DNA from: Oceanospirillaceae bacterium
GTDB taxonomy: Bacteria > Pseudomonadota > Gammaproteobacteria > Pseudomonadales > Balneatricaceae
Assembly: GCA_013373085.1 (NCBI GenBank)
Contig: JABXIM010000028.1
Coordinates: 33,235 to 97,234 of the forward strand
Direction: 5' to 3'
Length of the DNA: 64,000 nucleotides
This document shows positions 55,075 through 60,389 of this stretch, one piece after another (positions within the stretch are counted from its first letter, which is position 1; each line of letters begins with the position of its first letter). The position numbers and the translations under genes were made by a program. The notes under the pieces were generated by a model. It saw only the letters and a list, made by a program, of their open reading frames with translations. It was not told where the DNA came from and did no database searches.

Positions 55075-56874
55075 TTAACTGTCCACCTTGAGCACGGCGA
55101 GGAAGGCGTCCTGCGGGATCTCGACCCGGCCAACCTGCTTCATCCGCTTCTTACCTTCTTTCTGCTTGGCCAGCAGTTTCTTCTTGCGGCTCACGTCACC
55201 GCCATAGCACTTGGCGAGGACATTCTTGCGCAGCGCCTTGACCGTGGTCCGGGCGATCACCTTGCCCCCCAGTGCCGCCTGGATCGCCACATCGAACATC
55301 TGGCGGGGAATCAGCTCCTTCATCTTTTCGCACAATTGGCGCCCCCGATACTGGGCGTTGTCCTTGTGCAGAATCACCGCCAGAGCGTCGACTTTCTCAC
55401 CATTGATAAGGATGTCCATGCGCACCAGCCTGGCCGCTTCGAAGCGCACAAAGTTGTACTCGAGCGATGCGTAGCCGCGGCTGACCGACTTGAGACGATC
55501 GAAGAAGTCCAGCACCACCTCGGCCATCGGCAGTTCGTACTTGAGCTGCACCTGGCGTCCGACGTAATGCATGCCGAGCTGGTTGCCACGTTTTTCGACA
55601 CAGAGACCGATCACCTGACCGACGAACTCCTGTGGCACCAGGATGTTGGCCTCGACGATCGGTTCGCGCATTTCGCGAATTGCCCCGGGGTCCGGCAGCT
55701 TGGACGGGCTGTCGATGTGAATGACCTCGCCGCTGTTGAGCTCCAGCTCGTAGACCACCGTCGGCGCGGTCGTCACCAGGTCGAGGTCATATTCCCGCTC
55801 CAGGCGCTCCTGGATGATTTCCATGTGCAGCATGCCGAGAAAGCCGCAGCGGAAACCGAAGCCCAGAGCGTCCGAGGTTTCGGGCTCGAAAAACAGCGAG
55901 GCGTCGTTCAGTGTCAGCTTGTCCAGCGCCTCGCGGAAATCCTCGTAGTCATCGGCATCGGTCGGGAACAGGCCGGCGTATACCTGCGGCTGAACCTTCT
56001 GGAACCCCGGCAGACTGGGCACGTCCGGGGTTTTCGCCAGCGTCAGGGTATCACCGACGGGCGCGCCATGGATGTCCTTGATACCGGCAATGACGTACCC
56101 CACTTCGCCGGCCCTGAGTTCGCCGGTGGCGGTCTGCTTCGGCGTGAAAATGCCGACCTGGTCGACGGGATAGGACAAGCCGGTCGACTTCACCAGGACC
56201 TTGTCCTTCTTGCGCAACACCCCGTGCTTGACCCTGACCAGGGAGACGACGCCCTGATACTTGTCGAACCAGGAATCGATGATCAGCGCCTGCAACGGGG
56301 CTTCGAGATCGCCCTCCGGCGCGGGGATCTTTTCGATCAGGGCTTCGAGCACATCCTCGACGCCCAGTCCGCTTTTCGCGGAACAGGGGACGGCGCCGTC
56401 CGCGTCGATACCGATCACCTCCTCGATCTCCTGCCGGACGCGCTCGGGCTCGGCCTGCGGCAGATCCATCTTGTTCAGGATCGGCAGCACCTCCAGGCCC
56501 TGGTCGAGAGCGGTGTAGCAGTTGGCAACCGACTGGGCTTCGACGCCCTGTGCCGCGTCGACGACCAGCAACGCGCCCTCGCAGGCGGCCAGCGAACGCG
56601 ATACCTCGTACGAGAAGTCCACGTGTCCCGGCGTATCGATAAAATTCAGCTGGTAGGTTTTGCCATCACGCGCCTCATAGTTCAGCGTGACGCTCTGGGC
56701 CTTGATGGTGATACCCCGTTCGCGTTCCAGCTCCATGGAATCGAGAACCTGCGCCGCCATTTCCCGTTCCGTCAGACCGCCGCAGGTCTGGATAAAACGG
56801 TCGGCAAGGGTCGACTTGCCATGGTCAATGTGGGCAATGATGGAAAAGTTGCGAATATGTTGGAGGTTACTCAC
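55075..56874 (-). CDS. lepA: Elongation factor 4 (LepA)
   Basis: [47 protein letters not shown]; 599 aa. Confidence 0.98.
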
Positions 56875-57045: not shown

Positions 57046-58443
57046 TCACTCGAGTTTGAGGGGAATGAACATCGGGCTGCCGCGTCGAACGATGCGCAGC
57101 GGAACCGGACGATCGGACGGAAGCGCTTCAACACTCTGCTCGAACTGCTCGACGTTTTCGACCACCTGGCCGTTGACCATGGTAATGACGTCACCCACCA
57201 CAAGCCCGGCATCGGCACCGGCGCCAGGTTCGATACGCTCGACCACGACACCCGAGCGCAGGTTCCACTTCGCCTTGCGCTCCTCGTCGAGCGGACCCAC
57301 CTGAAGGTTGAGACGGTTGGATTTCGGCACCACCTGCCTGGACGTTCCGGCGAGCAGATCCTGATCTTCGGGCAAGATCCCGATTTCAACCTTGACCCGT
57401 TCGCGTTCTCCGGCCCGAACGATATCCACCATCACTTCGTCACCGGGCTTGATACGGCCGACTTGCGGCGGCAGGTCGGACGAGAGGTCGATTGGCTTGC
57501 CGTCGAAGCGATAGATGACATCACCTTCTTTGAACCCGGCGGCTTCCGCCGGGCTTCCCGGCAGCACTTTCGCAATCAGCGCTCCGGCGGGCTTGTCGAG
57601 ACCGAAGGATTCCGCCAGTTCGCGGCTGACTTCCTGGATGATCACACCGAGCCAGCCCCGCGTCACATGCCCCTGCGTACGCAGTTGGTCGGCCACATCG
57701 ATGGCGACGTCGATCGGGATGGCAAACGACAGCCCCATGAAACCGCCAGAGCGGGTGTAGATCTGCGAATTGACGCCGACCACTTCGCCATCGAGATTGA
57801 ACAGGGGACCACCGGAATTGCCGGGATTGATCGCCACGTCGGTCTGAATGAACGGCACATAGGTCTCGTTTGCCAGCGCCCGCTCAGTGGCGCTGACGAT
57901 ACCGGCGGTGACGCTGTGATCGAAGCCAAACGGCGAACCGATCGCCAGCACCCATTCGCCGACCTCAAGCTTTTCGGACGATCCCAACCGAACGACAGGC
58001 AGGCCGCTGGCATCGATCTTGAGCACCGCGACATCCGAACGCTCGTCGGAGCCGACCAGCTCTGCCTCGAGCTCACGTCGGTCATTCAGCCGCACCAGGA
58101 CCTTGCTGGCACCACTGATGACGTGATGATTGGTCAGGATGTAGCCATCCTGGCTGATGATGAATCCGGATCCGAGAGACCGTGGTGCGGGGCGGGCGCG
58201 TTCCTCGAGCTCCGGCAACTGGCGGAAAAAGTGCTTGAACATTTCCGGCAGCTGGTCAGCTCCCGGTCCTTCGAACGGATCGAAGGAATGGACATCGCCG
58301 CCCCGCTCTTTCGGTACCGTGCTGATATTGACGACAGCGGGCGCCGTTTCCTTGACCAGCGATTTGAAGTCGGGGAGCTGAGCCTGAACCGGCATCCAGG
58401 CCAGGCACAGCAGCAAACCAAGCACCATTCTGACAGACTGCAT
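57046..58443 (-). CDS. DegP/Q/MucD-type periplasmic serine endopeptidase (two PDZ domains)
   Basis: LTNHHVISGA; TDVAINPGNSGGPLFN; PDZ segments; signal peptide. Confidence 0.95.
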   Translation of the reverse strand: MQSVRMVLGLLLCLAWMPVQAQLPDFKSLVKETAPAVVNISTVPKERGGDVHSFDPFEGPGADQLPEMFKHFFRQLPELEERARPAPRSLGSGFIISQDGYILTNHHVISGASKVLVRLNDRRELEAELVGSDERSDVAVLKIDASGLPVVRLGSSEKLEVGEWVLAIGSPFGFDHSVTAGIVSATERALANETYVPFIQTDVAINPGNSGGPLFNLDGEVVGVNSQIYTRSGGFMGLSFAIPIDVAIDVADQLRTQGHVTRGWLGVIIQEVSRELAESFGLDKPAGALIAKVLPGSPAEAAGFKEGDVIYRFDGKPIDLSSDLPPQVGRIKPGDEVMVDIVRAGERERVKVEIGILPEDQDLLAGTSRQVVPKSNRLNLQVGPLDEERKAKWNLRSGVVVERIEPGAGADAGLVVGDVITMVNGQVVENVEQFEQSVEALPSDRPVPLRIVRRGSPMFIPLKLE

Positions 58444-58454
58444 GAATTCCTACC

Positions 58455-58901
58455 TTATGATGATTGGGGTATCACTTTTAACAGAATCGGCTGATACTGG
58501 CAGTCGCGCCCCAGGCGCTGACCCAGAATACGGGCAACCAACAACCCCACTGCCAGTCCCACAGCACTCCCCAGGATCGCAGGAAGCTCAGAATCGCCTT
58601 GCAGCGTCCCAAGATAACCGCCGACAAAAAGCAGCAGCAATGGAAGCGTATACAGCAACAGTGAGGCCTTGAGGAAAGAACCTTCGCGGATACCGATGAT
58701 CACCTGGTCGCCGACACGCACGTCGACACCGGCAAGGTTTTCCACACGGAGATCTTCACTTTTGCGGCTGGCGTACTCCGCCAGGGCTTTCTGCCCGCAC
58801 CCCTTGCTGGCGCTGCACGACATGCAGCTACTGGTGCGGCTGGACGAGATCCATACAACCTGGTCGTCGACGGCCACGACGCGGCCGGTTTCTTCGAGCA
58901 T
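58455..58901 (-). CDS. rseC: SoxR-reducing system / RseC family protein
   Basis: Cys cluster SSCMSCSASKGCG; two TM helices; between sigma-E anti-sigma gene and mucD-like gene. Confidence 0.88.
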   Translation of the reverse strand: MLEETGRVVAVDDQVVWISSSRTSSCMSCSASKGCGQKALAEYASRKSEDLRVENLAGVDVRVGDQVIIGIREGSFLKASLLLYTLPLLLLFVGGYLGTLQGDSELPAILGSAVGLAVGLLVARILGQRLGRDCQYQPILLKVIPQSS

Positions 58902-58903
58902 AC

Positions 58904-59755
58904 TCAGTCGCGCACCTGAACCGAGGAGGCAATCCGGTCGGCAATCATCAATGGCACGTCACCGACCACGGTGACGAAATAGTCCCCCTGCCGGCGACCC
59001 ACTGCCACCATATCGGCCGACTGCGCCACACCCTCGGCAACGGACTGCCGACCGAACGGCTCGACCGAGACCGACACCGAATGGCGTCCATCCGAATACA
59101 GCATCACTTCGGATTCCGGCAGCACTTCGTGGCGCACGTTACGAAAGCCGTCGGGCAGCCAGTTGGTGCGACATACCGGCTTCTTGGCACTCATCATATG
59201 CTGATGCTGGTCGATATACCTTTCCAACCCGCGAGACAGCCGGATCACGTCACCCTGTGGCTCGAGTCCGGCAAGGGAGCGCTGCTGCCCGAAGTGAGCC
59301 CTGACAAAGTCATCCGAGGCCGACACGCCCGGCAAACTGATTTGCGGCCGCGAGTCGGCGACATCGGTGACCGTCTCACGATTGAATCCCTGAACGCCGA
59401 GTATCACGGCAGCCGTGACCGATGCCGCTGTCGCCATGCTTACCAGCGGCTTCCAAAAGCCACCGGGCCGCGGCGACGTATCTCCGTTGGCAACCGCCGC
59501 GGTGACTTCAGTGGTAATATCCGGCTCATACTCGTCCGACGGCAGACCGCTTACCCGCGCCATGACGGCTGCACTGATGTCAGTGTTAACGGTATCGCGC
59601 TCACCTCGAATCGCCGAACGAATCAGGTGGTAACGCTGCCATTTCTGCCCCAGCTCCGACTGCTGCTCCATCCGGTCGAGCAGCCTGCGTACTTCAAACT
59701 CGCTGGCTTCGCCATCCACAAGCGCAGATAAAGAGTCGTTGAACTGTTCACCCAT
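58904..59755 (-). CDS. RseA/MucA anti-sigma-E factor fused to an RseB/MucB C-terminal domain
   Basis: N-terminus NDSLSALVDGEASEFEVRRLLDRMEQQSELGQKWQRYHLIRSAIRGE (RseA_N-like); TM WKPLVSMATAASVTAAVILGV; C-terminus TNWLPDGFRN...VMLYSDGRHSVSVSVEPFG...GDYFVTVVGDVPLMIADRIASSV (MucB_RseB_C-like). Confidence 0.78.
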   Translation of the reverse strand: MGEQFNDSLSALVDGEASEFEVRRLLDRMEQQSELGQKWQRYHLIRSAIRGERDTVNTDISAAVMARVSGLPSDEYEPDITTEVTAAVANGDTSPRPGGFWKPLVSMATAASVTAAVILGVQGFNRETVTDVADSRPQISLPGVSASDDFVRAHFGQQRSLAGLEPQGDVIRLSRGLERYIDQHQHMMSAKKPVCRTNWLPDGFRNVRHEVLPESEVMLYSDGRHSVSVSVEPFGRQSVAEGVAQSADMVAVGRRQGDYFVTVVGDVPLMIADRIASSVQVRD

Positions 59756-59801: not shown

Positions 59802-60389
59802 TCACTCCGCGAGGAAAGGTTCAATCTCTTTGTCGATCGCTTCCCGCGCCCTGAATATACGGGAGCGTACCGTCCCGACCGGGCAGTCCATGACATTGGC
59901 GATATCTTCATAGCTCAATCCCTCGAACTCCCGCAGCGTCAGAGCAACGCGCAGATCTTCAGGCAGACGATCCAGCACTCGTTTGACCATCGCCTCGAGC
60001 TCATCCCGGTACAGGTTGTTCTCCGGCGACTCGATATCCTTGAGATCACTGTCACCGCCGATGTAATGCGCGTCTTCGACTGTCACATCCACATCCGGCG
60101 GGCGCCGCCCCTTGGCCACCAGATGATTCTTCGCGGTGTTGATCGCAATCCGGTACAACCACGTATAGAAAGCACTATCTCCGCGGAATTTGGGCAAGGC
60201 CCGGTAAGCCTTGATAAACGCTTCCTGCGCCACATCAAGCGCCTCGTGATGGTCGTAGACATATCGGCCGATCAAACCGACAATCTTGTGCTGATACTTC
60301 TTTACCAGCAGATCGAACGCTCGACTGTCACCAGCCTGCACGCGCTTAACCAATTGTTCGTCAATCGCGCTCTGACTCTCGTTTGACAC
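59802..60389 (-). CDS. rpoE: RNA polymerase sigma factor RpoE/AlgU
   Basis: DEQLVKRVQAGDSRAFDLLVKKYQHKI; LREFEGLSYEDIANVMDCPVGTVRSRIFRAREAI. Confidence 0.97.
   Translation of the reverse strand: MSNESQSAIDEQLVKRVQAGDSRAFDLLVKKYQHKIVGLIGRYVYDHHEALDVAQEAFIKAYRALPKFRGDSAFYTWLYRIAINTAKNHLVAKGRRPPDVDVTVEDAHYIGGDSDLKDIESPENNLYRDELEAMVKRVLDRLPEDLRVALTLREFEGLSYEDIANVMDCPVGTVRSRIFRAREAIDKEIEPFLAE

Follow-up and report, generated by a model that had tools for sequence, protein, structure and literature searches.

A one-chain RseA-RseB' fusion without the RseB N-domain is fixed in a gammaproteobacterial family and has probably arisen on more than one occasion

Between rpoE and rseC, where E. coli K-12 carries two genes in the order rpoE-rseA-rseB-rseC-lepA, a 64,000-nucleotide stretch of an Oceanospirillaceae genome (the window) has a single gene, which raises the question of what has become of RseB. 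Sigma-E control is a textbook example of regulated proteolysis. Reviews describe it as a two-input gate, in which misfolded porins act via DegS and off-pathway LPS acts via RseB, the lipid input being unsettled (PMC8103513). The gene in question is a single unbroken ORF of 283 aa (58904..59755, minus strand, as are all features given below). It is flanked on one side by the rpoE/algU sigma factor gene (59802..60389; Sigma70_r2 and r4_2 domains) and on the other by rseC/mucC (58455..58901; RseC_MucC, E = 9e-33), mucD, which encodes an HtrA-type periplasmic protease with two PDZ domains (57046..58443; Pfam), and lepA (55075..56874; identified from sequence). The order rpoE-fusion-rseC-mucD was found in 20 of 20 family loci, one of which (L055) has broken frames. 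In that locus (L055/L164, from the complete genome of Aliamphritea spongicola, whose completeness is estimated at 78%), rpoE, the fusion C-domain, and mucD all appear to be frame-broken, more likely through sequence errors than biology.

The initial annotation read the ORF as one continuous frame whose two halves derive from RseA and from the C-terminal domain of RseB, and profile matches above the curated cut-offs bear this out. Residues 6 to 79 (59519..59740) match RseA_N, the sigma-E-binding cytoplasmic domain (E = 4.7e-16; 59.6 bits against a cut-off of 24). The RseB/MucB C-terminal domain occupies residues 195 to 281 (58913..59173; assigned by Pfam, phmmer, and Foldseek), with a match to MucB_RseB_C (PF17188) over residues 196 to 280 (E = 4.5e-16; 59.2 bits against a cut-off of 30.1). 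NCBIfam models recovered the same two halves with scores under the equivalog cut-offs, as expected because the matches are partial. In phmmer searches of the PDB, the N-terminal part aligned to the AlgU-bound MucA cytoplasmic chain (6in7) and to RseA (1or7), and the C-terminal part to MucB (6in8, 6in9, and 6jau) and RseB. A single transmembrane helix, placed at residues 103 to 121 (59393..59449) by a hydropathy peak, alignment, and conservation, separates the cytoplasmic N-domain from the periplasmic part, and rpoE is encoded upstream. By its predicted features (RseA_N, one transmembrane helix, and the RseB-docking helix alpha-I described below), the protein classes as an RseA/MucA class I anti-sigma-E factor. 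It is not a separate secreted RseB with a signal peptide; the C-domain sits on the RseA chain.

The annotation had further proposed that there is no separate rseB and that the N-terminal sensor domain has been lost, and both proposals held. The RseB N-domain (PF03888) is absent from the 283-aa protein in a Pfam search. The source genome, a draft of 5.78 Mb in 249 contigs with an estimated completeness of 100%, gave no match to PF03888 at E ≤ 0.001; at E ≤ 0.1 it gave two very weak matches (E = 0.047 and 0.058), far under the cut-off. The only PF17188 match over the cut-off in that genome is the fusion's own.

Alignment of the junction indicates what was removed. In relatives with two genes, a short tail (...G.(L/M)P(F/Y)AR...) extends RseA beyond alpha-I (e.g., LxxYxxQHAE), and the C-domain of canonical RseB starts at W..xW(L/V)PxGF. 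In the fusions, alpha-I runs to the initial W of the C-domain with few residues between; the tail of RseA has thus been removed, and with it the signal peptide and entire N-domain of RseB. The RseA part had been thought to keep its own periplasmic C-terminus, and here the earlier reading needs correction, since the tail after alpha-I is gone. The junction residue is C195 in the window protein and Trp in most relatives, and is equivalent to MucB W214. AlgW cleaves MucB at 211-TVAW-214 (PMC8545111), so the join lies at a natural domain border. The alignments show that the fusion arose from an ancestral rpoE-rseA-rseB-rseC operon by in-frame loss of the 3' end of rseA together with the signal peptide and N-domain of rseB.

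The survey of relatives called for by the initial annotation showed that the architecture is family-wide. The C-domain is present in 113 of 117 family genomes and in all 16 genera, nearly always in frames of 260 to 330 aa, and RseA_N and the C-domain lie in one chain in 27 of 27 diverse members tested. Genera named as carriers are Marinobacterium, Neptuniibacter, Neptunomonas, Amphritea, Aliamphritea, Nitrincola, Motiliproteus, and Pontibacterium; M. nitratireducens is the nearest to the window, at 83%. NCBI files Marinobacterium in Oceanospirillaceae, and the GTDB name for the group of Marinobacterium and its kin is, we take it, Nitrincolaceae. Intact RseB was found in none of the 117 family genomes. 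The other families of the order have a separate RseB with both domains, typically of 310 to 400 aa. The RseA-RseB' architecture is therefore fixed across one gammaproteobacterial family. The literature searched, which took in few subscription papers, yielded no description of such a fusion.

A class-wide sample of 369 genomes was searched for both RseB domains, with matches to PF17188 in 236 and to PF03888 in 234. Five of the sampled genomes have PF17188 but no PF03888: that of the window, G500, G616, G630, and G495. At the four further loci rpoE is followed by one chain with RseA_N, a transmembrane helix, and the C-domain, and then by rseC, although the matches in the G495 fusion are weak (E = 0.0022 for the C-domain and 0.01 for RseA_N). 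In the small order that holds G500 and G616, the C-domain lies in such a chain in five of six genomes (fusions L175, L176, and L246 to L248). The G630 fusion is L183, and G515, from the same family as G630, has separate rseA and rseB (L185). In a tree of RpoE, RseA_N, and the C-domain, the family of the window forms one group (88/89), the G500 group stands apart, and G630 is placed among genomes with two genes. A tree that united the G500 group with the family of the window in one clade was rejected, if modestly, in a test that covered these two groups (p-AU = 0.0255). The fusion thus probably arose more than once; given the tree placement and the rejected joint clade, at least three independent origins are likely, and a fourth is possible. 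Two further observations were made in this material. The G500-group fusions (L246 to L248, L175, and L176) share a conserved stretch, TEWVEV.G.W(V/I)ERW(I/V)NP, between the transmembrane helix and alpha-I. RseB-like proteins that are divergent or partial were also noted as L179 (G230), as L181 (G129), and for genus g29; L179, near the start of the available stretch, keeps the C-domain and only part of the N-domain.

Conservation was computed over 85 distinct fusion sequences. Mean information was 3.32 bits for the transmembrane helix, 2.61 for alpha-I, 2.75 for the C-domain, and 1.57 for the periplasmic linker outside alpha-I. Within the transmembrane helix, A110-A111-S112 is invariant (85/85) and aligns with AAC of E. 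coli RseA, the RseP site. Alpha-I (residues 169 to 188, 59192..59251; DVIRLSRGLERYIDQHQHMM) was assigned from alignment with canonical RseA tails, conservation, and structural models, and is predicted to bind the RseB C-domain; its most conserved residues are I171, R172, Y180, and H184. Of the 85 fusions, 80 retain H184, the counterpart of MucA H170, and a change of H170 abolishes binding of MucA to MucB (PMC7400510). MucA W158 and R162 are also essential for that binding (PMC7400510); by spacing from H170 they map to R172 and G176 of the fusion. The linker is otherwise variable, with one conserved island, SDDFVRAHFG, at residues 147 to 156 (59288..59317; family consensus S.D.VRAQFG), 28 to 37 residues ahead of H184. 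The AlgW site of MucA, A136 (134-VLAG-137), lies 34 residues before H170 (PMC8545111, PMC7400510), and the same distance before H184 leads to residue 150, inside the island. Because it is conserved and has MucA-like spacing, we infer that the island is a candidate region for site-1 cleavage by AlgW/DegS.

Alpha-I is deleted or degenerate, with the C-domain kept, in L046, L048, L049, L050, L054, and L059 within the family, and likewise in the fusions of G630 (L183) and G495, L184 being among the sequences affected. A C-domain position, P268, drew attention in these sequences: it is P in 60 of 60 canonical RseB proteins, S in six alpha-I-minus sequences, and S or T across L046, L048, L049, L050, L054, L059, L183, and L184. 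A link between this change and loss of alpha-I is suggestive and not significant, with eight alpha-I-intact fusions also lacking P and three independent pairs.

AlphaFold models were built for the whole protein (27 sequences) and for residues 133 to 283 (71 sequences). Both have a confident C-domain, a helix at 175 to 188, and an unstructured linker, and both match RseB/MucB in Foldseek (E about 1e-7); the pose of alpha-I is without confidence (pLDDT about 67 to 69, pTM 0.56). The source genome also encodes, beside hisD, an HtrA protease (L169) that has a hydrophobic segment at its N-terminus and a single PDZ domain. With an E value of 7e-103 to TIGR02038, under that model's cut-off, L169 is a candidate DegS/AlgW-like protease. 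RseP is present with a score over its cut-off, and judged from these genes the DegS/AlgW-RseP proteolytic route appears to be intact.

Set against E. coli RseA and RseB (1or7, 3m4w), the fusion shares RseA_N, the single transmembrane helix, the RseB C-domain fold, the rpoE-rse-rseC-lepA operon, and the presence of DegS- and RseP-type proteases; it differs in being one chain rather than two, without the RseB N-domain and signal peptide and without the RseA tail after alpha-I. The closest solved relatives of both halves are MucA and MucB of the P. aeruginosa AlgU system (6in9, 6jau), with which the fusion has in common alpha-I with its conserved Y and H, MucD downstream, and an AlgW-like protease, whereas the MucB N-domain with its lipid-A pocket and MucA alpha-II are missing. 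In the fusions of the G500 order and in L183, a single chain encoded between rpoE and rseC likewise joins RseA_N, a transmembrane helix, and the RseB C-domain, and G500, G616, and G630 lack PF03888 as the window's genome does; they belong to separate lineages, however, and the G500 group keeps alpha-I whereas L183 does not.

In the solved complexes, alpha-I of RseA/MucA docks on the C-domain of RseB/MucB, a universal contact; the lipid-A binding pocket belongs to the N-domain; and in the E. coli complex the RseA segment with the DegS site is buried in a hydrophobic pocket of RseB (PMC7400510), which we take to be mainly N-domain. With the N-domain removed, the switch should lose both its lipid input and its main shield, and it keeps the docking domain in tethered form. 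The initial annotation had the shielding domain held in cis. This stands insofar as the RseB C-domain is on the chain, but the retained part is the RseA-docking domain, and the segment with the cleavage site goes to the N-domain pocket. Its view of the switch as independent of the RseB lipid sensor gains support from this reasoning.

We favor, at a probability of roughly 0.55, a model in which the fused domain acts as a cis clamp, activation is driven by proteolysis, and lipid-A sensing is lost. Sigma-E would still be sequestered by the one-chain anti-sigma factor; alpha-I would pack in cis on the fused C-domain, clamping the linker, and the clamp would keep the periplasmic part bulky until the site-1 cut. 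The DegS/AlgW-like protease would cut near residues 147 to 156, and RseP would then cut within the membrane. Such a switch would answer mainly to protease-activating signals (misfolded outer-membrane-protein C-termini), and lipid would no longer have to release a separate RseB, the lipid-A-binding N-domain being gone. The strong conservation of alpha-I in most members counts for this model; the low-confidence pose of alpha-I and the mapping of MucA W158 and R162 to R172 and G176 count against it, and cis shielding cannot explain all cases, since fusions without alpha-I exist. Some lipid input may persist, since AlgW itself is lipid-responsive in vitro (PMC8545111).

Those fusions without alpha-I bear most on the nearest alternative, in which the fused C-domain serves chiefly as steric bulk that bars the intact protein from the PDZ size filter of RseP until a site-1 protease, unregulated by the C-domain, removes it. 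The PDZ tandem of RseP does exclude RseA whose periplasmic domain is intact (PMC7728848), and retention of the C-domain in alpha-I-less fusions (e.g., L046, L049, L059, L183, and L184) is unexplained by cis clamping. Pure bulk, however, would call for neither a conserved docking helix nor a conserved C-domain surface, yet in most members alpha-I is clearly better conserved than the linker; we consider this reading unlikely. That several lineages of fusions conserve the C-domain, even where alpha-I is gone, would also suit a new sensor, gained or kept, with a partner or ligand in trans. No linked candidate partner was seen, the neighbors at 20 loci being the usual rpoE, rseC, and mucD, and we know of no ligand function for the RseB C-domain alone, which makes a new sensor improbable.

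It is less probable still, indeed very unlikely, that a diverged LolA-like protein supplies the lost N-domain in trans. At E ≤ 0.1, PF03888 scored over the cut-off in 12 of 117 family genomes; all of these matches are weak and partial, many of them in proteins of about 295 aa, such as L063 and L064, whose cross-match to the RseB N-domain profile makes them easily taken for RseB. The best of them, L063, was tested and rejected as RseB: it belongs to another family (PF17131 LolA_like, E = 1.6e-44), and the source genome's own PF03888 matches are at E = 0.047 or worse. Although the source genome is a draft in 249 contigs, an error of assembly or sequencing, or a pseudogene in decay, has a negligible chance of explaining 85 distinct, independently sequenced fusions with strong domain conservation, and an assembly deletion is excluded by recurrence of the fusion in independently sequenced genomes, some of them complete (AP025763.1, NZ_CP092123.1, and the one-contig G029 and G033).

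The fusion is thus a variant of the known sigma-E control system, real, fixed in a family, and probably repeated. Annotation models built for single protein families likely label such proteins as plain RseA or RseB and so miss the change. The fusion is a natural separation of the two domains of RseB and suggests that the RseB C-domain has a value of its own when tied to RseA. A broader proposal, which we put forward tentatively and at somewhat less than even odds, is that several gammaproteobacterial lineages independently dropped the lipid-sensing arm through a similar fusion, so that a gate with two signals, protein and lipid, would have become a one-chain switch driven only by the protease signal, with the RseB docking domain as a built-in clamp. 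The family without the N-domain and the further lineages provide natural experiments on the need for the lipid input.
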